64,000 bases of DNA, taken from positions 1 to 64,000 of the forward strand of contig JAIDFQ010000074.1 of assembly GCA_029054245.1 (NCBI GenBank). Reading direction: 5' to 3'. Below the pieces are notes generated by a model. The model was given only the letters and a program-made list of their open reading frames with translations. It had not been told where the DNA came from and ran no database searches. Origin of the DNA: Lachnospiraceae bacterium. Lineage in GTDB: Bacteria > Bacillota > Clostridia > Lachnospirales > Lachnospiraceae. Of the stretch, positions 1 to 13,208 are shown piece by piece. How positions within the stretch are numbered: position 1 is the stretch's first letter; each line of letters begins with the position of its first letter. Made by a program: the position numbers and the translations under genes.

Positions 1-3000
1 CCCACGCTGTCGTAGGTATATTCTGCGCTTCTTGTAAGCGCCGTAGAACTGCCTTCCCTTAAGGATGCAGTGATGCGTCCCATGTTGTCGTAGGAAAGGG
101 TCTCCTGCATAACGGTCCCGTCTTCCATCTGGTACCTTGCGCTCACAGGCAGTCCGCAGGCATTGTAGCCGTATGCGGCAGTGCTGCCGGGCTGGGTCAG
201 GGAAAGGAGCTGTCCTGCCGGGTCATATGCATACCGGGCGGTCTCTTCTTCTCCCTCTGTCACCGTAGTGAGGCGACGATTCCTGTCATAGCCATAATGG
301 ACCGTGCTGCCATCGGGATAGGTGATGCTGGTAAGGCTGCCTGTGGCATCATAACCGTAAGAAGCGCTTCTGCCCTCCGGATCTGTCACCTTTACCGGTC
401 TTCCCAGCTGGTCATGCTCCACCGTGGCGGTGCCGTTCCAGTCGGTAAGCTCCACCAGCTCGCCCCGCTTGTTGTAGCGGAAAAGAGCTTCCTTCCCATC
501 GCTGTAGCCCATATATACGGGTCTGTTATTCAGGTCATAGCGGACAGTGGTCACTCCGGCTTCCTCATCCGTAATGGTGACGATGTTGCCGTTGCCGTCA
601 TAGGTGTATGCCTTTTCGTCCAGAAGCGGGTTGATCTCCCTGATTCTCCTGCCCTTTAAGTCATACTGGTAAACGGTCACTGCCTTCTGCTCCCCTGAAT
701 CGGACAGATACTCCTTGATCTGGTTGTTCATGGCATCATACTCGAAGTTTGTAACATTGCCGAGGGCATCCGTGATCTGCGTCAGGTTGCCGCAGGCATC
801 ATAAGCATAGCTGGTAACGCCGCCCTCCGGGTTTGTAACGGATGCAATCCGACCTGTAGGTGTATAGGCGAAAGTAAGCTTATCTCCCATGGCGTTAGTG
901 ACGGAAACTGCCTGTCCCAGGGCATTATATTCATAAGAGGTCATATTGCCCACAGGATCTGTTTCTGTCAGCACCTGTCCTGCCCCATCGTAAGTGTAAA
1001 CTGTCGCGCCGCCCTCCGGGTCTTTGATACTGAGCAGGTTCCCGGCAGGAGAATAGCTGTATTCTGTTACATTGCCGTTTGCATCGGTCTGACTTAAGAT
1101 TCTGCCTAAAGCATCGTAGGTAAAGCTCATGCTGTTCCCTAAGGCATCAGACATCTGGATCATCCTGCCAACAGCATCATACTGGTAGCTTGTTTCCGCC
1201 CCTTCCGGGTCTGTCACCTTTGCTATCTTCCCTGTATTGGTGTAGCTGTAGGTCAGCTTGTCGTTCTCCTCATTGATCACATGAATCAACTGATGAAGTG
1301 CATTGTAGGTATAGACCCATCTGCTGCCGTTTGCATCGGTATATGAGATTCTGTTCCCGGCTGCGTCATAGGTGTATGTGCACTGGTTCCCTTCCTCATC
1401 TGTGGCTGAAATCAGACGGTTTAGACTGTCGTAGAGATAGACTGCCTCTCCTCCTAAAGGATTCACCCGTCCGGTCAGATTTCCGTTGCCATCATAAGAA
1501 AATGATGTCGTTCCGCCGTTGGCATCGGTGACGGAAAGGAGTTGTCCCTTGTCGTCATAAACATAATTTGTCTCCTGTCCCAGCGGATCTGTGATCTTGA
1601 TCAGCTGACCATTGGCATTGTAATCATATTCTGTTACGTTACCCTCCGCATCGGTGACCTTGGTGCAGTTGCCGTTCTTGTCGTAGGCGTAAGCAGTCGT
1701 TCCGCCGTCCGGCGCTGTTTTCTCAGTTAAGCGTCCCATCTCATCGTAACAGTAAGTAGTCTGGTTTCCCTCTTCGTCTGTAGATACCATGAGGTGGTCA
1801 TCCCCGTCATACTGTGCTGTTTTCGTATGATTCTCGGCATCCAGCACAGAAACGATTCTTCCCAGCTTATCATAGGTAAAGGAGGTTGTGCCAGCCTCAT
1901 TTTGGATCGTAAGCAGCCTGTTTTCTTTATCATAAGTGTATGTTGTGACTGCGCCCTCTTCGTCCATCTTGGTCAGAAGATTGCCCATCTGGTCGTAAGT
2001 GTAGCTTACGCTCTGCTTCATTGCATTCATCACACTGATGATGCGCCCTGCCGGATCGTAAGCGTACGCCGTCTGGTGTTCCATGGGATCTGTAACGGTC
2101 TTCACCTGTCCCATAGTGTCATAGGTGTATCTCACGGAGCCATCCTGGGCATCCCTTATTTCCGTCAGCTGATTTGCCGCATCAAAGAAATAGCGGGTGG
2201 TATTTCCATTCTGGTCGGTACAGGATACCCTGTTTCCCATAGCGTCATACTCATAGTGAACGCTGTATCCCAAGGGGTCAGTCACAGTGATTAGATTTCC
2301 TTTCTGATCGTAGGCAAACTGATATTCTTTTCCCATAAAGTCCGTGGCAAGCAGGATCTGCCCCATCTCATTGTATTCCAGACGCTGCTTGTTCCCCATC
2401 TTGTCTGTCACGCCGGTGCGGCTTCCATTGCCGTCATACGTAAACAAAAGGGTTCCTTCCTCATCCACAATACCAGTCAGATCGCCGGCTGCAGAATATT
2501 GATAAGAAGTGGTCCTGCCGGCAGGGGTGGTGTAAGAGGTCATCCTTCCAAGGTGGTCATGGGTATAACCATAGCTGTTGCCCTCCGGATCCTGCGCGCT
2601 TTGTAAATGATTCTCCTCATCATAAACGTAGCTCCACACGTTGCCTTCTTTATCCGTATAAGATGTCAGGTTGTCGTTCTCATCATAAACATAGGAGCAT
2701 ACATTTCCCCGTTCATCCTGGGCCAAGATCAGATTGTTTCTCTCATCATAGCCATAGATGCTCTCTGTTCCATCCCGGTTTACCACCTTTACAGGATAAT
2801 TGCTGCTGTTGTAGGAAAGTTCTTCCCTTGTCCCGTCAGGATAGATCACGCAGTTCATCCGTCCGCATTCGTCATAAAGCATCTGGGTGGTACGGTTTAG
2901 GGCATCCACCTGTACGGTCAGCTGTCCTTTTTCATTGTAATTTTTCTCAATGCCGCTTTCCCCGTATTCTACCCGGGTAACCTGCAGATTCGTATTATAA

Positions 3001-6000
3001 TGATATTTTGTCTCATTTCCCAATTCATCTGTAAAGATGGTCACTCCCTCATCCGTGTCATAGGCGGCAGTGCTTTCTCCCCTTCCGGCAACGCTCTGGG
3101 CAATGACTCTGCCCCATTGGTCATATTGATTTGTCAAGTAAGGCTCCCCGGAGAAATCCTCAACCTCCAGCAGTCTATGCTTGTCATCATAGGCAAAATG
3201 CATCCTGTTTCCGGCTGGATCAGACAATGCTGTCAGATGATTTGCCTCATAGGTGAAACCGATTTTGTTACCCAGTGCATCTGACACGCCAGTGATATGT
3301 CCATTCTGATAAGTCAACGTAAACATCCTGCCATGTCTGCCCTCTATACAGACGTTCTGTCCCTTTTCATCCGCCGTAAATAAAAAGGCTGCTGATCCGC
3401 CGTCCATGATGCTGCCAAGGCGCAGGTTTTCATCAAACACATATGCCGCACCGTCAGCCGCTGTGATGACATAGGAACCATCCTCTTTCTTTGCAAAGGT
3501 ATAACTCTCCTGCATTTCTTCCGCCTGCTGATAGCCGTCATTAACCTCGTCTATCCTGAAAGGAATCACCACGTCATAAGGGGTGCTGAAATAAAAGTAT
3601 TCCTCATCCTTGTACAAAAGATAATTGAAGGAGTGGGTCCATCCTTTTCCAAGCATTGTTACCGCTTCATCCCGCTGGGAATCATACATGATGGTAAAGT
3701 GCAGGTTATCCCTTCCGTAATCCCTAAGAAGCGTATAGCTCCACAAGAAAGCGCCTGTCACAGCGTTTACAGGATCCAGTCCTGTATGGGAAACCCTTCC
3801 GTCAGGATAGGTTTTGGGCAGGACTGTGCCCGCAAGCCCGCTCCATTTGCTGATTTGGGTTTTGATACTCTGAAGAGGACTGTAGGCGCTGGGACCAGCT
3901 GCGTTATTGGCTCTGACACAGTAAGTATGTTCTGTATTCGGTTTTAAACCGTAAAATACTTGAGACATGCGGCGGACGCCTCGCGCAGCATCCCCTGCAG
4001 CAGCGCGCATCTGCATGCTTTGAGGTACGCTTGCCGATACGGATGTATCTACACCGTCAAACTGTACATCATAGCTGAGCGCTTTATCCATCACATCCCA
4101 GCTCACCGTCACCGTATTTAACGTGGATGTGGCGCTGACGCCTGTGGGCGCTTCTAAAAATGTGGTGACAGTCTGAATTGCACTGTATGCGCTGACACCT
4201 CCCGCATTTCTCGCCCGTACGGAATAGGAGTACTCTGTTCCAGGTTCAAGCTCTGTAATCGTTTTTGTAAAACCTACTATGCTATAAACGGTATTTCCCA
4301 AGCGCACTTCATAACTGGATGCACCACCAGAATAGCCCCAGTTTACCGTAACGGAATTCGTCGTAGCCACTGCGCTCACATGTGTAGGTGTCGGCGGCGG
4401 AGCGATAAGCGTTTTTACATTTAGAACCGCAGTATATGCGCTTACTCCTCCGGAATTTCTCGCACGGACTTTACAGCTATAGGTTGAAGTTTGCCGTAAC
4501 CCCGTTATTGTTTTAGATGTTCCTGTTACGCTGTAAGTATTGTCCCCAACTTGAACATCATAGCTGGCTGCCCCTGTCACTTTATCCCACGAAAGTGTAA
4601 ATGAATTTGATGTAATTGAATTGGCTCTCAAATTGGTTGGCATGGCAGGCGCTATTTCCTTGGTCTTGATTGTCTGTCGAGCAGAATAAGGACCTGTTCC
4701 TCCGGCATTTTTTGCACGGACTTGATAACTATAACTGGTATTTGCCTCCAATTTAGGTATTACTATGCTTGTCGCTGTTGTCGTATAAGTCGTATTATGA
4801 AATAATACTTCATAACTGTTCGCTCCCGATACCGCATCCCATAGAACAGTTGCCGCGCTTGCTGTTGCACTTGCCCTCACATTTACGGGCGTCCCCGGCG
4901 CAGCGGGCAGCGTCATAATTGCCTGCTGTGTAGAGTAAGAACTGGATCCTCCGCTGCAGTTTGCTTTCACCGCATAAGTGTGTCTTGTGTTGGGTGTCAG
5001 ATTTGAAATAGTGACAGAAGTTCCATAAATGGTTCTCTCTGTTCCGTCAAACAGCACGGTATAGTTATTCGCACCGCTTACCGTATCCCATTTTACCGTA
5101 ACCGTGGTCTGCTGCGCTGTCGCAGTTACATTAGTCGGCGCTGCCGGCAGTGTCCTTATGGTCTTTAAGGCGGAGTAAGCGCCTGCTCCTCCTGTATTTT
5201 TTGCACGCACCTGATATGTATAATCTGTATTGGACGTCAGGCTGTTGATGGTAAGGGAGGTTCCTGTCGTCTGATAAGCCTTGTTTCCGCACATGACATC
5301 ATAACCGGTAGCTCCCGATACCGCGCTCCAGCTGATCTTCACAGAATTGACGGTTGCGCTTGCCGTAACATTTGCAGGCACAGCCGGTGCGCCGGGAAGG
5401 GTTTTAACCGTCCGTTCTGTGCTGTAGAAGCTGGCTGCTGTTCCATACCTTGAACATACAGAGTATGTATAATTGGTACTGGATTTCAGACCGGTAATGG
5501 TAATCGTTGTCCCCTTTACATTTCGGACAGCGCCGTCAAACTTCACATCATAGCTGGTGGCTCCGCTCACTGCATCCCAGCTGACGGTAACAGAATCCCG
5601 TAAGGCAACTGCCGTTATATTTTCCGGTGTCTTCGCCTGTGTCCTCACGTTCTGAACATCCGTGTATGCACTGGTTCCTCCTGCATTCTTTGCACGCACC
5701 TTGCAGGCATAGCTTGTAAAGGAGGTAAGTCCGGTAATAGTCGCCGATGTACCTTTCACCTCGTGCACCGTACTTCCAACCATCACCTCATAGCTGGTAG
5801 CTCCGTACGCGGCAGTCCAACTTAATGTGATTGACTCAGCCGCAGCGCTTATTTTTACATTCAACGGCATCCCCGGCGCATTGGGCAGTGTGGATGCTGT
5901 CCCTGCACTGCTGTAGGAACTGGATCCGTCCGCATTGTTTGCACGGACCTGATAGGAATAATTGGTACCTGGATTCAGCCCAGTGACCGTCTTGGATGTT

Positions 6001-7157
6001 CCTGTTACCCTATAGGTCGCGCCATTAAACAGAAGGTCATAGGAAGTGGCGCCGGGCACTGCATCCCATCCAACTGTCACAGAATTTTTCGTACTTGACT
6101 GTGTGATCGGGTTGGGCACTTTAGGCGCCGTCTTGACCGTCTTTGCACTGCCGTAGGAACCGGAACCGTTGGCATTGTTCGCACGGACCTGATAGGTGTG
6201 GCTGGTATTAGGAGAAAGACCGCTTACCTTTAAGGAATTGGTGGTCACACGGTAAGTCTTGCCATCAAATAACACATCATAACTGGTGGCTCCGCTTACT
6301 GCCGGCCAGCTCACCGTCACAGAATTTTCATTCGTACTTGCGCTGACACTTGCAGGCGCTTTTGGCGCTGTCCTTACCGTCTGCGCCGGTCCGTACGCAC
6401 TGGCACCGTCCGCATTTTTGGAACGGACCTGATAAGAATAAGCGGTGTTAGCCGCAAGACCGGTAAAAGTTCTAGAAGTCTTTGTCTCAGCATATGTCGT
6501 GCCATTAAATAGCACATCATATCCGGTAGCTCCGCTCACCGCCGGCCAGCTCACCGTGACAGAATTATCCGTGGAAGTGTGCGTGACGTTTGTGGGAACC
6601 GACGGTGTCTGGGGCAGTGTCGTGATGGTTCTTGTACTGCTGTAGGATCCTGTCTTATTTACATTCTTTGCTCTCACAGCATAAGTATGGCTCGTCTTCG
6701 GCTTAAGCCCGGTAATCGTCTTACTGATTCTCTGAAGAGAGCTTGTTATACTGTAGACAACATTGTCAAACAAAATATCATAACTGCTCGCCCGCGCAAC
6801 TTTATCAAAGCTGACCACAACGGACGTAGCGGATGCCGTTGCACTTATATTTGCCGGAACCGCCAACGGAATGTGGTCATAAAAATCGGAAAGAATCAAC
6901 ACTTCCGCTCCATCTGATGTGATGCTTGCCCCCGACGACGTATAAGCCACTACCACAACCTTATACTTCTCATTCGCCTTAAGATCTGGCTGACTGGTAT
7001 AGGTCGTGGTCGTCAGATTGGTCTCATTATAAATAGTGTGATCCTGCCCCGGAATACGCATATACGCATGATACCGCGCAGCATTGGAAATGCGGGACCA
7101 GTTGGCTGTGATCGAGCCATTGCTGTTTAGGGTTAATTTTAAATTCAATTGTTCCAT
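1..7157 (-). CDS. Giant FnIII-array RHS/YD-repeat protein (C-terminus outside window)
   Basis: One uninterrupted frame runs from an ATG at 7157 (preceded by GGAG, 7-base gap) off the left edge, giving at least 2385 residues. Residues 1 to about 1085 form roughly 13 tandem fibronectin type III domains of about 80-90 residues, each with SWxxVSGATSYDV-like and YxVRAKNxxGxSxYS-like strands. Around residue 1110 the RHS entry motif GLDPVNAVTGAF appears. From about 1270 onward there are dozens of about 21-residue YD repeats (for example GNLTSYTD, YDxxGR). The family forms a hollow shell that often encapsulates a C-terminal toxin or adhesive tip, but that end is not visible here. No signal peptide or N-terminal membrane segment is seen. 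The last FnIII domain carries an Ala/Arg-rich insertion near residues 1040-1066. The rSAM operon upstream ends in its own terminator, so this gene probably has its own promoter. Family confident; role inferred. Confidence 0.93.
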   Translation of the reverse strand, partial: MEQLNLKLTLNSNGSITANWSRISNAARYHAYMRIPGQDHTIYNETNLTTTTYTSQPDLKANEKYKVVVVAYTSSGASITSDGAEVLILSDFYDHIPLAVPANISATASATSVVVSFDKVARASSYDILFDNVVYSITSSLQRISKTITGLKPKTSHTYAVRAKNVNKTGSYSSTRTITTLPQTPSVPTNVTHTSTDNSVTVSWPAVSGATGYDVLFNGTTYAETKTSRTFTGLAANTAYSYQVRSKNADGASAYGPAQTVRTAPKAPASVSASTNENSVTVSWPAVSGATSYDVLFDGKTYRVTTNSLKVSGLSPNTSHTYQVRANNANGSGSYGSAKTVKTAPKVPNPITQSSTKNSVTVGWDAVPGATSYDLLFNGATYRVTGTSKTVTGLNPGTNYSYQVRANNADGSSSYSSAGTASTLPNAPGMPLNVKISAAAESITLSWTAAYGATSYEVMVGSTVHEVKGTSATITGLTSFTSYACKVRAKNAGGTSAYTDVQNVRTQAKTPENITAVALRDSVTVSWDAVSGATSYDVKFDGAVRNVKGTTITITGLKSSTNYTYSVCSRYGTAASFYSTERTVKTLPGAPAVPANVTASATVNSVKISWSAVSGATGYDVMCGNKAYQTTGTSLTINSLTSNTDYTYQVRAKNTGGAGAYSALKTIRTLPAAPTNVTATAQQTTVTVKWDTVSGANNYTVLFDGTERTIYGTSVTISNLTPNTRHTYAVKANCSGGSSSYSTQQAIMTLPAAPGTPVNVRASATASAATVLWDAVSGANSYEVLFHNTTYTTTATSIVIPKLEANTSYSYQVRAKNAGGTGPYSARQTIKTKEIAPAMPTNLRANSITSNSFTLSWDKVTGAASYDVQVGDNTYSVTGTSKTITGLRQTSTYSCKVRARNSGGVSAYTAVLNVKTLIAPPPTPTHVSAVATTNSVTVNWGYSGGASSYEVRLGNTVYSIVGFTKTITELEPGTEYSYSVRARNAGGVSAYSAIQTVTTFLEAPTGVSATSTLNTVTVSWDVMDKALSYDVQFDGVDTSVSASVPQSMQMRAAAGDAARGVRRMSQVFYGLKPNTEHTYCVRANNAAGPSAYSPLQSIKTQISKWSGLAGTVLPKTYPDGRVSHTGLDPVNAVTGAFLWSYTLLRDYGRDNLHFTIMYDSQRDEAVTMLGKGWTHSFNYLLYKDEEYFYFSTPYDVVIPFRIDEVNDGYQQAEEMQESYTFAKKEDGSYVITAADGAAYVFDENLRLGSIMDGGSAAFLFTADEKGQNVCIEGRHGRMFTLTYQNGHITGVSDALGNKIGFTYEANHLTALSDPAGNRMHFAYDDKHRLLEVEDFSGEPYLTNQYDQWGRVIAQSVAGRGESTAAYDTDEGVTIFTDELGNETKYHYNTNLQVTRVEYGESGIEKNYNEKGQLTVQVDALNRTTQMLYDECGRMNCVIYPDGTREELSYNSSNYPVKVVNRDGTESIYGYDERNNLILAQDERGNVCSYVYDENDNLTSYTDKEGNVWSYVYDEENHLQSAQDPEGNSYGYTHDHLGRMTSYTTPAGRTTSYQYSAAGDLTGIVDEEGTLLFTYDGNGSRTGVTDKMGNKQRLEYNEMGQILLATDFMGKEYQFAYDQKGNLITVTDPLGYSVHYEYDAMGNRVSCTDQNGNTTRYFFDAANQLTEIRDAQDGSVRYTYDTMGQVKTVTDPMEHQTAYAYDPAGRIISVMNAMKQSVSYTYDQMGNLLTKMDEEGAVTTYTYDKENRLLTIQNEAGTTSFTYDKLGRIVSVLDAENHTKTAQYDGDDHLMVSTDEEGNQTTYCYDEMGRLTEKTAPDGGTTAYAYDKNGNCTKVTDAEGNVTEYDYNANGQLIKITDPLGQETNYVYDDKGQLLSVTDANGGTTSFSYDGNGNLTGRVNPLGGEAVYLYDSLNRLISATDEEGNQCTYTYDAAGNRISYTDANGSRWVYTYNALHQLIHVINEENDKLTYSYTNTGKIAKVTDPEGAETSYQYDAVGRMIQMSDALGNSMSFTYDALGRILSQTDANGNVTEYSYSPAGNLLSIKDPEGGATVYTYDGAGQVLTETDPVGNMTSYEYNALGQAVSVTNAMGDKLTFAYTPTGRIASVTNPEGGVTSYAYDACGNLTQITDALGNVTNFEYDAMNNQIKEYLSDSGEQKAVTVYQYDLKGRRIREINPLLDEKAYTYDGNGNIVTITDEEAGVTTVRYDLNNRPVYMGYSDGKEALFRYNKRGELVELTDWNGTATVEHDQLGRPVKVTDPEGRSASYGYDATGSLTSITYPDGSTVHYGYDRNRRLTTVTEGEEETARYAYDPAGQLLSLTQPGSTAAYGYNACGLPVSARYQMEDGTVMQETLSYDNMGRITASLREGSSTALTRSAEYTYDSV

Positions 7158-7264: not shown

Positions 7265-7588
7265 GTCTTGCTGTGGGTACTGGATTTGCCATCGGCACTT
7301 AGGCACCGCCCTGCGGACACGTCCCTATTTAACCTTTCCAGTCTCGTCTTCAAATCGGATTTCACTAACAGAATTGACTATAGGTATTTCAAGACGGACG
7401 GGGCGCAGCCAAGCGGCATCCGTGCCGCACGGCTGCTAATCCGGCATCCATGCCGGATTCCCCTGGTATCGACCAATTCTGTAAGTGAAATTACCGATTT
7501 TTCGCCAGAGCCTGGAAAGGTTAAATAGGGACGTGTCCGCAGGGCGGTGCCTAAGTGCCGATGGCAAATCCAGTACCCACAGCAAGAC
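7265..7588. repeat. Palindromic element, copy A: conserved core with 77-bp perfect inverted arms
   Basis: The arms at 7265-7341 and 7512-7588 are exact reverse complements over 77 bp. They enclose a core at 7342-7511 that is nearly the same as the core of the copy at 19993-20341, read in the opposite orientation. The core ends are imperfect inverted repeats, ATCGGATTTCACTAACAG against the complement of CTGTAAGTGAAATTACCGAT. Inside are nested hairpins (GCAGCC...GGCTGC at about 7405-7436, and AATCCGGCAT...ATGCCGGATT at about 7438-7459). The arms have no obvious counterpart in the other copy. No convincing gene is encoded; short open frames across it are a by-product of the palindrome. It lies between the rSAM terminator and the RHS gene. 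The remaining stretch 7158-7264 is AT-rich and holds only the RHS ribosome binding site and weak promoter-like sequence. Confidence 0.9.
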
Positions 7589-7717: not shown

Positions 7718-9148
7718 TTATCTGCTTTCATTTGCCAGCATGAATCGTAAATCTTGTATCAAATCCTGATCTCTTCCTCCAGTCAATTCTACTGCCTGCC
7801 GCATTTTTTTGAGACCTTCTCCTTTCTGTCCCATTTGGAAAAGCGCCATTGCATAGCCCCCAAGGGCATAGGAATCTTTCTCATTTGTTTTAAGCACTTT
7901 TTCATTTGCCTCAAGGCAGGAATCATAATTGCCGCACATAAATTCACAGTAGCCTTTTTCCTTTAGCGCGTCTGCATTTTCTGGGTCGAGCTGCAGCACT
8001 TGTCCAAGTGCAAATGCCGCCTCCTGATAATCGCCCTGCCGCATTAAGGCGTCTGCCAGCTTAAATAAAGATTCTGCATCCTTACATACAGCATACTTAT
8101 CCTCCATCTGCTTGAAAGACAGGTGATAGGCACAATACTGGTTTTCGGAATAAATATCGCCGTTCATGGTCAGCCTGGTGTTGGGACATCCGCCCAAGCA
8201 TTTGCTGCCATAAACACAGTTTCTGCAGGCGCCATTTAATTTGTCCTTGGTCATTTTTCTGCGCCAGAGGAAATTGTTTTCATCTTCCCAGATTTCCCGC
8301 AACGTGTGCTGCCTGATATTGCCTTCAATAAACTCCTTGGAGCGGATGGAGGTGCATCCCAGAATATCGCCATTTTGCAGAATGCCAAATCCCCGGGTAC
8401 CTGCATTACAGCCATCCCAAGAGGCGATTAGATTCGTCTGGTAAGCAATCTTCTTGATTTCTATTTCCTTTTTGGTATAGTAACCAATACAATCAGCCAA
8501 ATAGATTGCAATTCGTCCCTCTTTTGCTGTGTCATAGGCAAAATCAATGATATCCCTAATCTGTGTTGGCTCCAGCACCCAGTCGGGGCGTTCCTTAAGG
8601 CTTCCCATGGGAAGACCCAGCTGGATCTGCCAGCTCTTAACTCCCATCTTAATCAGCTCTTCTTTCAGTTCATTCAGGATATTGATGTTCTGTTTGGTGA
8701 TAGTGGTAACTGCCCCCGTATAAATGCCTAGCTTCTCCATGGCTAAAAAGGCGTTTTTGGCATGTTCAAAAGCTCCTTCTTTTCTGATACTGTCATGAAT
8801 CTCAGGCGTGCCGTCAATGCTGATAGCGACAGTAGAAATTCCACTTTCCTTTAACTTCTGTGCAGTTTCTCCGCCAAGTAGCCAGCCGTTTGTAATGATA
8901 TTTACGGCTACCCCTGATGACGAAAGGCGTTCCACCAGCATCGGAACATCTTTCCTCGTAAGCGGCTCCCCTCCTGAAATCGTGATCCAGTTCAATCCCA
9001 ATTCCGCTATCTGGTCGCAAAGGTTCAATGCTTCCTCTGTACTAAGCTCATCCAAAAGCGCCTCTGCGCAGGAAGAGCCGCAATGACCGCACCGCATATT
9101 ACATCCCATCGTCACTTCCCATACGCAGGTAATCGGTTTGTACTTCAT
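7718..9148 (-). CDS. Radical SAM/SPASM peptide-modifying enzyme with C-terminal TPR
   Basis: 476 residues. The radical SAM cluster motif CNMRCGHC (Cys16, Cys20, Cys23) is near the N-terminus, followed by ISGGEPLTRKD. The middle carries a SPASM-type Cys set (CNAGTRGFGILQNGDILGC, then CRNCVYGSKCLGGCPN and a later Cys) that should bind auxiliary Fe-S clusters, as in PqqE- and anSME-like maturases. Residues about 350-470 are TPR-like helices (GDYQEAAFALGQVLQLDPEN). The start has TAAGGAGG overlapping the stop of the upstream gene, 12 bases away, so the two are translationally coupled. The family usually modifies ribosomal peptides or proteins by carbon-radical chemistry. The upstream repeat protein is the obvious substrate, which is inference. 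The TPR tail could bind it. Confidence 0.9.
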   Translation of the reverse strand: MKYKPITCVWEVTMGCNMRCGHCGSSCAEALLDELSTEEALNLCDQIAELGLNWITISGGEPLTRKDVPMLVERLSSSGVAVNIITNGWLLGGETAQKLKESGISTVAISIDGTPEIHDSIRKEGAFEHAKNAFLAMEKLGIYTGAVTTITKQNINILNELKEELIKMGVKSWQIQLGLPMGSLKERPDWVLEPTQIRDIIDFAYDTAKEGRIAIYLADCIGYYTKKEIEIKKIAYQTNLIASWDGCNAGTRGFGILQNGDILGCTSIRSKEFIEGNIRQHTLREIWEDENNFLWRRKMTKDKLNGACRNCVYGSKCLGGCPNTRLTMNGDIYSENQYCAYHLSFKQMEDKYAVCKDAESLFKLADALMRQGDYQEAAFALGQVLQLDPENADALKEKGYCEFMCGNYDSCLEANEKVLKTNEKDSYALGGYAMALFQMGQKGEGLKKMRQAVELTGGRDQDLIQDLRFMLANESR

Positions 9149-9160
9149 ATTGCTTCCTCC

Positions 9161-9838
9161 TTAACCATTGGGATGGCGGCGTTTGCTAATAAATGGCTCA
9201 TTTATCACGGACTGCATACCACAGGGATACCCATACTTCATAACCGCATCCTGCACTCCGCAGAAATACCCATACTTCATGCCTGCATCCTGTGCTCCAC
9301 CATTATTTGTATAATCTACCCATGCATCCTGTACCCCACAAGGATATCCATAATCCATACAAGAGATTGTAGGCTGCGGCAGACCATATGCTGTCACCAG
9401 TGGGAACTTCGGCGCCCGCTCCCATGGAGGAAGAACGCCATAGGGAATGGCACTATTCATTGTATTGCATGCATTTGCCTGGTTGCCTGCAAATCCATAT
9501 AATTCATTTGCATTTTCGCTGTAAGAAACAAACTCATCTGAGTTGCTGGGAATGATGCTCAATGCCACTTTGTATTCCCTTTCGACCCGTGTTGGCTCAA
9601 AGGTACATGCCATGGCAAAAGTAAGTTCCCCTTCTGCTTCTTCTGCCGACGATACTCCAAAATAGAATTTCTGCAAGGTGGAGGATACTGCCGGTCCTGT
9701 AGCAATCCTGTCTTCTCCTAAAAGGATAATTCCTTTCGGCAGCCCTGACAGGCACCAGCCATATCCTGAAGATCCCAACATTGACTGCAATTCAATTGAG
9801 AATGTCTTTCCCTCCAATACTACCATTTTCTGTCCCAT
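9161..9838 (-). CDS. Candidate precursor: chagasin-like domain plus four Tyr/Cys/Gly repeats
   Basis: 225 residues, start ATG at 9838 behind AAGGAGG (7-base gap). Residues about 8-92 resemble the chagasin/I42 cysteine-peptidase inhibitor fold: GKTFSIEL, then a GSSGYGW loop, and a strand-rich end at REYKVALSII. A linker (about 95-158) is rich in Asn, Ala and Pro. Residues 161-212 are four tandem 13-residue units with the pattern [MV][DK]Y-G-Y-x-C-G-x-Q-[DS]-A-x; units 1, 3 and 4 have Cys while unit 2 has Gly in its place. A basic tail (ISKRRHPNG) ends the protein. There is no signal peptide. Coupling to the rSAM/SPASM gene suggests a modified-peptide substrate whose leader is a folded I42-like domain. 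The domain call is by motif only and the function is inferred. Confidence 0.72.
   Translation of the reverse strand: MGQKMVVLEGKTFSIELQSMLGSSGYGWCLSGLPKGIILLGEDRIATGPAVSSTLQKFYFGVSSAEEAEGELTFAMACTFEPTRVEREYKVALSIIPSNSDEFVSYSENANELYGFAGNQANACNTMNSAIPYGVLPPWERAPKFPLVTAYGLPQPTISCMDYGYPCGVQDAWVDYTNNGGAQDAGMKYGYFCGVQDAVMKYGYPCGMQSVINEPFISKRRHPNG
9203..9358 (-). repeat. Four tandem 39-bp units encoding the precursor's C-terminal repeats
   Basis: Four in-frame 39-bp units (9320-9358, 9281-9319, 9242-9280, 9203-9241 in coding order) encode the 13-residue Tyr/Cys/Gly repeats. Units 1, 3 and 4 are most alike (MDYGYPCGVQDA, MKYGYFCGVQDA, MKYGYPCGMQSV). Unit 2 (VDYTNNGGAQDA) has lost the Cys and the second Tyr. 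Confidence 0.9.
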
Positions 9839-9933: not shown

Positions 9934-10010
9934 GCAGAGCAATCCCCTTAAAAAAGTATGTGGCATTAAGAGACACTGTTTTGGCAACGAAATTTTATAT
10001 TGTGACATCC

Positions 10011-10214: not shown

Positions 10215-10946
10215 ATGCGAATTGCAATTATTGACGACTCAGCCGACGACGGTGTAATCATTGCAAACTATCTTTGCCGATATTTTCATGAAGTCTTATG
10301 TCCCGAATCCACTGTAATTGAGAAATTTGAAAGCGGTGAGCAGTTTATTGCGCATTTTGCAGAAGGTTTATATGAACTGATTCTGATCGATTATTTTATG
10401 CATACCATGAACGGATTGGATACAGCCAGAAAAATCCGCCAGCTCGATTCTTCTGTGTCTATCATATTTATCACAGCAAGCAGGGACTATGCAATAGACT
10501 GTTACAAAGTCCGTGCGTCTGATTATATCGTTAAACCTGTGACTTATACGCAAATAGTAGAAACCATGTCCCTGCTCAATCTGAATATGCTGCTGGAGAA
10601 ACAATGCATCCAGATTGCCTGCGGCAGAGAGCAGCTTAAGGTTTTTTTAAAGGATATCATCTACTGCGATGCCTCCGGTCATTACGTCCAGATTCATGCC
10701 CGTGGGTGTTCCCTTTTGCGTTCCCGGATTTCCTTTGAAAGATTCATTAAGACCCTTCTGCCGTATCCCCAGTTTCTTGTGTGCTACCGTGGCTGCCTTG
10801 TCAATATGGATCATATGATCCGAATAGAAAATCTGGATTTTGTAACCAGCGAAGGGGAACACATCCCCATACGGCAAAAAGATTGCGGACGGCTGTCCCA
10901 AATCTATTACAATTATATTTTCTCAAAAGTCAGGAGCAATCAGTAA
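10215..10946 (+). CDS. LytTR-family response regulator (AgrA/VirR type)
   Basis: 243 residues. The N-terminal receiver domain begins with IAIIDDSADD acidic residues and has the phospho-acceptor Asp in LILIDYFMHTMNGLD and the later Lys in DYIVKPVT. The C-terminal LytTR DNA-binding domain runs from about 130 to the end (IIYCDASGHYVQIHARG, FLVCYRGCLVNMDHM). The stop overlaps the start of the kinase gene by one base. Its position back-to-back with the precursor-rSAM operon suggests that it controls that operon, its own operon or both (inference). Confidence 0.92.
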   Translation: MRIAIIDDSADDGVIIANYLCRYFHEVLCPESTVIEKFESGEQFIAHFAEGLYELILIDYFMHTMNGLDTARKIRQLDSSVSIIFITASRDYAIDCYKVRASDYIVKPVTYTQIVETMSLLNLNMLLEKQCIQIACGREQLKVFLKDIIYCDASGHYVQIHARGCSLLRSRISFERFIKTLLPYPQFLVCYRGCLVNMDHMIRIENLDFVTSEGEHIPIRQKDCGRLSQIYYNYIFSKVRSNQ

Positions 10947-12253
10947 TGGAACCTATTAAAATTTTAAAAATCTTCCTATATGTTTTGTTGGATCTGACCC
11001 CCTGCCTTATCTTGGCGCTGTCTCCTTTTCGGAGTCATTTCCGTTTTTCATGCTTAAAGACCTATTTACTTATACCTCTGTTGTTTTTGACCGTCTTCAT
11101 TTGCAGACTGTTAACGATTCAAGGTCTACCTGCTGCCAAAATCATTACCGTCTTATGGATAGGTGCATATCTTGCCCTGTATGTCATCTGCCTTAAGCTT
11201 CCTGTCAGTATTTTGCTCTTCGTCTTGCTGACGATTTTAAATTATGGAAGTTTTAAGGCAATCATCGTAAACGGACTGACTCATTTTTTACCGTTTCCTT
11301 CCGCCGAACGCTATTCTCTTTTATCCAGCATCTTATTGCTCTTTGTTTATTTGTTTACATTTCCCTTTATGTATCAGATGATGACAAAAAAGATTGGTCC
11401 ACTGATTAACGAGGCAGATAATAACAGATACTGGCGTTTTCTCTGGCTGGTTCCTGCAACCTTTTGCCTTTCCTATTATTATAATCTCTATGCCAACGGA
11501 GGTATTATGGCTTTTTCCGCCAAAAACAGTAATGTTATTTTTGCATTATTGTTCAATCTGGGCGCTCTTTTTGTCACCTTCCTGATTTTACAGCTTCTCA
11601 AAGAATGTAATGATAAACTGCTTCTGGAAGAGGAAAACCATCATCTTGCCATGCAGTCCATTCGATATGAAAACTTAAATTGCCGTATAGAGGAAGCAAG
11701 GATTGCAAGGCACGATCTGCGGCAGCATTTATCTGTTATGCAGTCCTTTCTGCAAAGCAAGGATTACCAAAAACTTTCGGATTATATTCATGAATATATT
11801 TCCACGCTCCCCTCTGATTCGACTATCACCTATTGCGAGGATTACGCACTGAATGCTTTGATCGTCTATTACGAAAATATGGCAAAAAACCATCAAATCC
11901 GCTTTTTGGCTGACATCGACTATCCCCCGGAAAACAAAATCCTTTCTTCTGACGCCGTTATCCTGTTCGGAAACCTTTTGGAAAACGCTTTGGAAGCCTG
12001 CATGCGGGAATCTGTGCCAGACCCTTTTATTTCCCTTTGCATAAAGCCCATGAATTCCATGATTATCGTTGCCTTAGATAACACCTGTACCCAGCTCCCA
12101 GAGCGCTGCAAAGACGGTTTTGCATCGGCAAAAAAATCCCGCACTGGAATCGGCACAGTGTCTATCAGCAAAATTGCAGAAAAGTACAACGGTGCTGCGC
12201 AATTCGAGTTCAAAAACGGCGTTTTTTACAGCTCTGTGCTGTTAAGTCCATAA
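10946..12253 (+). CDS. GHKL-type sensor histidine kinase (AgrC-like)
   Basis: 435 residues from the ATG at 10946, which overlaps the regulator stop (TAATG) and has AGGAG nine bases upstream; the longer frame from 10781 is an artefact. The N-terminal half has about six hydrophobic membrane segments. The dimerisation/phospho-acceptor helix contains ARHDLRQHLSVMQ. The ATPase domain has the N box NLLENALEAC and a late G box KSRTGIGTVSISKIAEKYNG. Kinases of this class commonly sense peptides. With the neighbouring peptide-modification genes, the modified product is a plausible ligand, but this is inference. Confidence 0.92.
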   Translation: MEPIKILKIFLYVLLDLTPCLILALSPFRSHFRFSCLKTYLLIPLLFLTVFICRLLTIQGLPAAKIITVLWIGAYLALYVICLKLPVSILLFVLLTILNYGSFKAIIVNGLTHFLPFPSAERYSLLSSILLLFVYLFTFPFMYQMMTKKIGPLINEADNNRYWRFLWLVPATFCLSYYYNLYANGGIMAFSAKNSNVIFALLFNLGALFVTFLILQLLKECNDKLLLEEENHHLAMQSIRYENLNCRIEEARIARHDLRQHLSVMQSFLQSKDYQKLSDYIHEYISTLPSDSTITYCEDYALNALIVYYENMAKNHQIRFLADIDYPPENKILSSDAVILFGNLLENALEACMRESVPDPFISLCIKPMNSMIIVALDNTCTQLPERCKDGFASAKKSRTGIGTVSISKIAEKYNGAAQFEFKNGVFYSSVLLSP

Positions 12254-12272
12254 ATCAAAAGGAGGAATGATA

Positions 12273-13208
12273 ATGAAAACAACATTACAAAAAGGAGATA
12301 TGATCTTATTTTTTGCAGGCGAAACCTGGCTGAGCAAATCGATTGCCTATCTTACCAACGCAGAAGTGACACATGCCTCCATGGTCTATTCAGAGGATTC
12401 CATTGTGGAAATCCTTGCCGACGGTCCCCAGGTCAATAAAATCTCTCTTCAGGATAATGACCGGCAGGGACATAAAGCTTATCTCATGCGCCATGTACCG
12501 GAGCTTTGCTTTGCGCCCCTCAAGCAATCTGCAGATGCATACCTGCAATCGGATGCCTTCTATGACTTCCCTGGGCTATTTCTTCTAGGAGGGCTTCTTA
12601 TTTATCATAAGATCATCCCCTCTTTCCAGATTCTCAATTGTACAGAACTTATATTGGAAGCAGGTATCCTTATGCTCGACCGCTTTATTCATCAAAAGCT
12701 CCTCCATCATACGGGCAAGCCCATGGTCTGTTCCCAATTTATCTATCAGCTTTTTTATGACTGTGGAGGAAATTACCGGATACCCATTGTAAATGGATGC
12801 TTTTCTGCAAGGAAAAATACCGATGCATGCTGCAAAGGCGAAATATGTCTGGCTGACCTGCTAAGGGAAGGTTCTTCAATGAAAGCAGAGAATGCCATAT
12901 CCTCTTTTTCCATTAAAGAGGAAGATATGGACGCTCCTTCTTTTGCAGAAAACCTGTCAGAAAAACTATACCTTGCCTTGTCACAATCCGAACAGGCACT
13001 GCTTGACTTAAATTTTCTGTCTGCAAAACCGCATGATACAAGCAGGGTTCTTTCCCTTGCCCGCCAGTTTCTCGATAGGGTAAAGCAATTACAGCTAAAA
13101 CTTGACATGGATCTGCCCTTAGATGCCATGTTCGTTACAGTTGCCGACCTTGCCTATCATGCTCCCAGCCTTGAGAAAATCGACACGATCTATGTAAAAC
13201 GACTGTAA
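12273..13208 (+). CDS. Permuted papain-fold hydrolase (YiiX/NlpC-P60-like)
   Basis: 311 residues from the ATG at 12273, which has AGGAGG at a 7-base gap (the ATG at 12267 is too close). An early His lies in VTHASMVY (His34) and a later Cys in GKPMVCSQFIYQLFYDCGG (Cys153). This His-before-Cys order is the hallmark of permuted papain-like enzymes such as YiiX and LRAT-like proteins. It opens with KGDMILFFAG, the usual first strand. The last 110 residues are helical and unassigned. There is no signal peptide, so it is probably cytoplasmic. It is the third gene of the LytTR/GHKL operon, beside a protein with a papain-inhibitor-like domain. Processing of that protein is a testable idea, not shown. 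Confidence 0.78.
   Translation: MKTTLQKGDMILFFAGETWLSKSIAYLTNAEVTHASMVYSEDSIVEILADGPQVNKISLQDNDRQGHKAYLMRHVPELCFAPLKQSADAYLQSDAFYDFPGLFLLGGLLIYHKIIPSFQILNCTELILEAGILMLDRFIHQKLLHHTGKPMVCSQFIYQLFYDCGGNYRIPIVNGCFSARKNTDACCKGEICLADLLREGSSMKAENAISSFSIKEEDMDAPSFAENLSEKLYLALSQSEQALLDLNFLSAKPHDTSRVLSLARQFLDRVKQLQLKLDMDLPLDAMFVTVADLAYHAPSLEKIDTIYVKRL

Follow-up and report, generated by a model that had tools for sequence, protein, structure and literature searches.

What does a radical SAM/SPASM enzyme do to a protein that begins like a peptidase inhibitor and ends in Tyr/Gly-rich repeats? The question is raised by two adjoining genes on the reverse strand of the window, by which we mean the whole 64,000-nucleotide stretch of Lachnospiraceae DNA that was analysed. 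The first-pass annotation had described a radical SAM/SPASM/TPR enzyme separated by 12 bases from a 225-residue protein, and had proposed that the second is the substrate of the first, with an I42-like fold in the position of the leader and with Tyr/Cys crosslinks (−2 Da) in four 13-residue repeats.

A radical SAM/SPASM enzyme beside an I42-fold protein

The two-gene arrangement is confirmed in the sequence. The precursor gene lies 12 bases upstream of the enzyme gene, with a GGAGG-type site. The features of the pair are as follows.

7718..9148, reverse strand: radical SAM/SPASM enzyme with C-terminal TPRs, 476 aa, predicted to be splicease-like
7739..8077, reverse strand: TPR region of the enzyme, approximately residues 358–470 (Pfam TPR matches at residues 358–430, further extent presumed)
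9161..9838, reverse strand: putative precursor (substrate) protein, 225 aa, with an I42-fold N-domain and an XYG tail
9548..9838, reverse strand: I42/chagasin-fold domain, residues 1–97 (Pfam I42, 18.1 bits for the isolated domain; AF2; VIA-align)
9164..9523, reverse strand: tail, residues 106–225, with six XYG sites (LYG, PYG, AYG, DYG, KYG and KYG)
9206..9361, reverse strand: four tandem 13-residue units, residues 160–211, three of them with YGYxCG

The I42 similarity that had been claimed for the N-domain is present by profile search, with a match that is near full-length on the profile, but the window domain scores 18.1 bits against PF09394 (I42), under the gathering score of 27.2, whereas its relative L048 exceeds that score with 46.3 bits. 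The structure prediction that had been proposed as a check places the chagasin family at the top of the VIA-align list for the predicted precursor structure, which supports an I42-like fold in the leader position. In the AF2 model, block means of pLDDT are 71–91 up to residue 110 and values fall below 50 from residue 111 onward, so that the Tyr/Gly-rich tail is predicted to be unstructured. Searches against PDB sequences gave no match at E ≤ 10 with the precursor profile and nine matches at E 0.25–0.95, none of them I42, with the N-domain profile; against NCBIfam the precursor had no match at E ≤ 1, and a Nif11 or NHLP leader was not recognised in this search. I42 inhibitors act through three inhibitory loops, NPTTGY, GxGG and RPW. 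The window protein resembles the chagasin/I42 cysteine-protease inhibitors in its fold, in the extent of its profile match and in a TGYxW-like loop, the only one recognisable in the window family, and is unlike them in its degraded GxGG and RPW loops and in the fused XYG tail; L048 retains STGYAW, GAK and RAWE at the loop positions. With two of these three loops degraded, the N-domain of the window family may have no inhibitory activity. Values of dN/dS against four relatives are low for both the N-domain (0.09–0.12) and the enzyme (0.05–0.08), as in any conserved gene.

The enzyme is over the Pfam cut-offs for radical SAM and SPASM, and the three cysteines of the CxxxCxxC motif and the seven of a full SPASM set are invariant in 10 clade sequences. 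The TPR region is a possible substrate-recognition part. The top NCBIfam model is TIGR04103, which we take to be the same as IPR026482, at 207.3 bits against a cut-off of 725; it is also the top model for all six other clade members scanned, and the second-best model of the window enzyme is TIGR03913 (GDL-motif). The nif11-class peptide radical SAM maturase 3 of Nostoc sp. C057 (L036) reaches 853 bits against TIGR04103, over the cut-off, and is 30.8% identical to the window enzyme over 70% of its length. In a search of plasmids for more TIGR04103 enzymes the Nostoc enzyme alone was over 60% identity and five others fell below, so this row is the sole sure TIGR04103 member compared. Among the 40 PDB sequences that the enzyme matched at E ≤ 1e-5, none carries a splicease name, and in a reading of the neighbouring genes no PlpY-like gene and, besides the precursor, no conserved small gene was recognised adjoining the enzyme.

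In a tree of 32 enzyme rows, 23 form a clade with support of 96/97. Its join to the nif11-3/GDL group is weak (82/68, with long branches), and the placement of the GDL enzymes as sister group is not relied on here. The signature WQ[IVL]Q..xPMG is shared by all 23 clade rows and the Nostoc enzyme and is absent from the eight other rows.

Directly downstream of the enzyme gene is an 81-bp inverted repeat (7265–7345 and 7508–7588, 99% complementary, 162 bp apart), which is perhaps a small mobile or palindromic element. Positions 3–7157 of the reverse strand encode a protein of at least 2385 residues that reads like FN3 plus RHS/YD repeats and runs off the contig start, and similar genes begin downstream of the enzyme in the related loci L020 and L021.

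The X-Tyr-Gly motif and the reaction

The four tandem units of the window tail are present, but the array is less regular than the Y-G-Y-x-C-G-x-Q-D-A motif given for it: YGYxCG occurs in three units and the whole motif in two, and three further XYG sites precede the array. The tails of 24 precursors contain 249 XYG sites, ranging from 3 in the truncated L026 and 4 in L138 up to 20 in L117. The residue that follows is Y, F, V, L, I or M at 245 of the 249 sites, Pro stands at +3 in 173 and Cys at +4 in 155. Position X is Lys at 168 of the family sites, as compared with two of the six in the window. The constant element of the tail is X-Tyr-Gly-hydrophobic, often then Pro; it is not Cys. Six of the 24 tails also contain a short motif of another kind, [ND][EQT]PF[IL]x, which reads NEPFISKR near the C-terminus of the window protein (9164–9202) and is repeated six times in L137 (NQPFLRNS).

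The same motif is found beside the other enzymes of the clade. All 23 rows have an XYG-bearing ORF within approximately 3 kb, directly adjoining in 20 and with a transporter gene between in three, these three being among the five GG-type loci and the transporter being of the peptidase-type ABC class. The leaders are I42-type in 15 rows, GG-type in five, NHLP-type in two (L038 over the TIGR03793 cut-off, L039 by likeness) and a short unannotated ORF in one, from Agathobacter. The last (L034, 6806–6910, on an Agathobacter rectalis plasmid) ends in FGPVMYGTGVRM and is followed by a clade enzyme lacking TPRs and by an MFS transporter; its MYGT is an exception to the rule of a hydrophobic residue after YG. 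L038 has two further leader-type precursors lacking YG. Outside the clade, the Nostoc enzyme adjoins a Nif11 precursor ending in ALYGLPPELF, and two sister enzymes have six GDL/DUF1843 substrates beside them, three of which contain YG. The DUF1843/GDL peptides of L035 and L037 have a Tyr-centred N-terminal motif (LYG and PYG, also MYA, LYA and MYM), which suggests that the XYG rule is relaxed in that family. In Fibrobacterota, the two most distant relatives (L130 and L131) showed no credible XYG precursor within about 1.5 kb; the L131 enzyme (G896) has the PMG and IGYY signatures, and its match is interrupted by a stop, as in a broken gene.

An ORF with at least three YG-hydrophobic sites accompanies 17 of the 23 clade members at flanks of 1500 bases and 20 at 3000 bases; the precursors of the remaining three (L034, L038 and L039) have one XYG each. 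As a control, 30 of about 108 SPASM matches listed in relatives were taken, namely those for which loci were given (L077–L106); these loci, of 1.9–3.2 kb, are shorter than the clade stretches (3.1–7.7 kb). The best ORF had 0–2 such sites in 29 of these and three in the other, where it overlaps a longer gene, and no credible XYG-repeat neighbour was found in the 30. Of 28 tiles of the window, only the two holding the precursor had three or more sites.

Taken with what is known of the Pleurocapsa splicease PlpXY, these data argue for tyramine excision. In the available part of the PlpXY report, the enzyme accepts tags built on PIRPGYGLPI, from the PlpA2 core, and its natural sites are MYG and LYG (PMC10533398). 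Excision is favoured because the XYG-hydrophobic pattern fits this tag, at least as far as that part of the report describes it. The pair thus most likely works like a splicease/spliceotide system in which tyramine is excised at XYG sites, a reading that we hold with reasonable confidence; it is not to be filed in TIGR04103, nor as a proven spliceotide.

SPASM enzymes are also able to form thioether- and cyclophane-type links. Worked out for this pair, the earlier proposal would have Tyr or other carbons bonded to the Cys of the repeats (thioether, cyclophane or similar), in a product of several rings with a shift of −2 Da for each unit. The 155 sites with Cys at +4 are in keeping with this, as are several Fibrobacter tails in which most sites have it (13 of 15 in L028, 17 of 20 in L117), but Cys is dispensable and for this reason the crosslink is ranked second to excision. 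It is absent from 94 of the 249 sites, rare in L048 (1 of 10), L029 (2 of 10, Fibrobacter) and L030 (1 of 12, Fibrobacter), absent from all four sites of L138, and lacking in the LYGIE, KYGV, AYG and MYG units beside the other relatives of the enzyme. We therefore consider the Tyr/Cys crosslink unlikely.

We likewise give little chance to a different reaction at the XYG Tyr, such as a Tyr-centred C–C or C–O bond to a neighbour or backbone cleavage. The distance to the TIGR04103 maturases is large, the enzyme has a TPR tail and no recognised PlpY, and X is often Lys or Pro, while the available part of the report names Met, Leu and an engineered Gly for PlpXY, and not Lys or Pro (PMC10533398); on the other side, the residues around YG fit the accepted tag as described there, and the WQxQ..xPMG signature is common to the clade and the Nostoc maturase 3. 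The XYG motif alone is not sufficient for PlpXY, as judged from the FtsZ constructs listed in that part, since 14 of 16 remained unmodified, including LYG and AVAAGYGVVFP tags, and two were modified (PMC10533398).

Distribution and neighbouring genes

The substrate–enzyme pairing that had been proposed is supported by strict co-occurrence. The precursor was found in 8 of 98 relatives, all of one genus. The enzyme was found in 8 of 60, and these are the eight that have the precursor; each belongs to the 60 genomes common to both searches. Scanning genome contigs yielded 13 loci, comprising eight of the window type (five Lachnospiraceae and three uncultured or Bacillota) and five from Fibrobacter. 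Within the Fibrobacter family the precursor occurs in 9 of 101 genomes, five of them already known from the contig scan, and the enzyme in the same nine. Further members came from an enzyme search of 391 genomes of the class (G731 and G583) and a search of 167 genomes of the Fibrobacter phylum (G928), and a search of 397 genomes of the family found the system in three more genera; a second L048-type enzyme was not found in 22 genomes of the order of L048, and 38 stretches of viral contigs that matched a pattern held no relative.

The 24 precursors examined belong to genomes of the Lachnospiraceae type, to a second family in the class and to Fibrobacter. The enzyme gene is adjacent in 23 of them and in all 23 that are testable, as the 24th (L026, in G014) stops at a contig edge and the enzyme is on another contig of that assembly. 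A homologue of the repeat protein lacking the enzyme, which the first-pass annotation had named as evidence against the pairing, was not found among these 24. That the repeat protein is no substrate and the two genes are merely co-regulated would suit the Fibrobacter pairs, which lack a further conserved pathway gene nearby, but is very improbable given the identical genome sets (8 of 60 and 9 of 101), the adjacency in 23 of 23 and the presence of XYG substrates with very unlike leaders next to related enzymes.

Among the I42-type rows of the enzyme tree, the five from Fibrobacter form a group with L047, which belongs to the family of the window, with support of 100/100. This grouping suggests that the enzyme passed between phyla.

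In the window the pair faces a divergent set of genes, as follows.

9962..9987, reverse strand: 21-bp-spaced direct repeat TTGCCAAAA-N12-ATGCC upstream of the precursor, a candidate LytTR-type operator
10215..10946, forward strand: divergent LytTR response regulator (Pfam Response_reg and LytTR over cut-off)
10946..12253, forward strand: GHKL-type sensor kinase (Pfam HATPase_c_5, 58.2 bits), with the start placed from homologues; the longest ORF begins at 10781
12267..13208, forward strand: permuted papain-like (YaeF/YiiX-like) protein, a weak assignment

LytTR regulators bind spaced 9-bp direct repeats. The repeat upstream of the precursor is conserved in all eight aligned upstream regions (window, L018–L023 and L026) and was not found in L024; the pattern derived from that alignment has one match in the window and none in 100 shuffles. 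In nine of nine window-type loci (window, L018–L024 and L026) a response regulator and a sensor kinase run divergently from the precursor, the families having been checked in the window alone. On the basis of the conserved operator-like repeat, the divergent LytTR two-component system probably controls the pair in the window-type loci. The 12267..13208 protein scores 16.1 bits (E 0.0046) against the NCBIfam YaeF model, far under the cut-off, with no Pfam match at E ≤ 0.01, and a weakly YaeF/YiiX-like protein, as judged from sequence starts, follows the two-component genes in eight of the nine loci but not in L023. Neither the two-component genes nor the YaeF/YiiX-like gene was seen near the Fibrobacter pairs, and for this reason they are not considered core parts. 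In the loci examined the pair has no conserved protease or exporter gene for a neighbour, so that the product may function as an intact protein.

The proposed product and known systems

If the pair works by tyramine excision, the I42-fold N-domain, in the position of a RiPP leader, would probably recruit the enzyme together with the TPR tail, and the enzyme would remove C8H9NO (−135.08 Da) at each XYG site, leaving alpha-keto-beta-amino residues attached to the folded domain. The product would be a folded beta-domain bearing electrophilic ketoamides, up to six in the window protein and up to 20 in L117. Such a protein is plausibly a multivalent protease inhibitor that would most likely trap serine or cysteine proteases, and, more speculatively, its Lys sites would favour trypsin-like or clostripain-like enzymes. 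The full picture, in which a cysteine-protease-inhibitor fold has become the carrier of a multi-warhead arm, with up to 20 mostly Lys-derived ketoamides on a folded, uncleaved protein that serves bacteria of the gut and the rumen as a multivalent covalent protease trap, in two phyla between which it was passed, is a tentative one that we regard as possible rather than probable.

Were it true, backbone splicing would extend beyond small peptides that carry Nif11 or NHLP leaders, the folded domain of an inhibitor could serve as carrier, and one protein could bear many ketoamides. Gut and rumen bacteria would then provide a protease inhibitor that is genetically encoded, multivalent and covalent, and the system would offer a testable case for the natural role of spliceotides. 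Its enzyme would be a splicease acting at Lys-Tyr-Gly, perhaps without PlpY, and would be useful for protein labelling. In the available parts of the sources, spliceotide products are termed protease inhibitors with reference to other work (PMC10373908, PMC11117315), and a 2022 review still calls their natural role unknown (PMC8868522).

The earlier remark that the system belongs to no class that could be named holds in part. No system that combines chagasin or I42 with a radical SAM enzyme or a RiPP, and no name for an I42 leader, was found in the literature covered, outside of which Scott et al. 2022 may describe one; the chemistry, on the other hand, probably has a name. PlpXY is similar in that a radical SAM/SPASM enzyme acts on XYG and that PIRPGYGLPI has the order X-Y-G-hydrophobic-Pro. 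It differs in having nitrile-hydratase-like or Nif11 leaders and PlpY, a truncated RRE, where the present system has an I42-fold domain and a TPR tail; Lys is common at X here, there are up to 20 sites, and the enzyme scores 207 bits against the 725 required by TIGR04103, in a comparison made with the family model. In the available part of its source, PlpX is placed in IPR026482 (PMC11002830). The Nostoc maturase 3 shares the WQxQ..xPMG and IGYY signatures and a substrate core with LYGLPP, and differs in its Nif11 leader, a separate downstream ORF of 71 aa, a length of 420 aa that lacks the TPR-length tail, and its low identity to the window enzyme. The GG-leader peptides of L050, L051 and L053 have KYGV, LYGI or MYGI repeats beside enzymes of the same clade, but are short and accompanied by an exporter, of the C39 type by eye from the sequence start; PCATs serve spliceotides among others, according to the available part of one account (PMC10885120). 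The GDL-motif (TIGR03913) maturases with DUF1843 peptides are related through the second-best NCBIfam model, and some of these peptides have LYG or PYG, but YG is confined to three of six and the leader is different. Compared with the known splicease systems, what is new here is the I42 carrier, the TPR tail, the preference of the family for Lys and the high number of sites.
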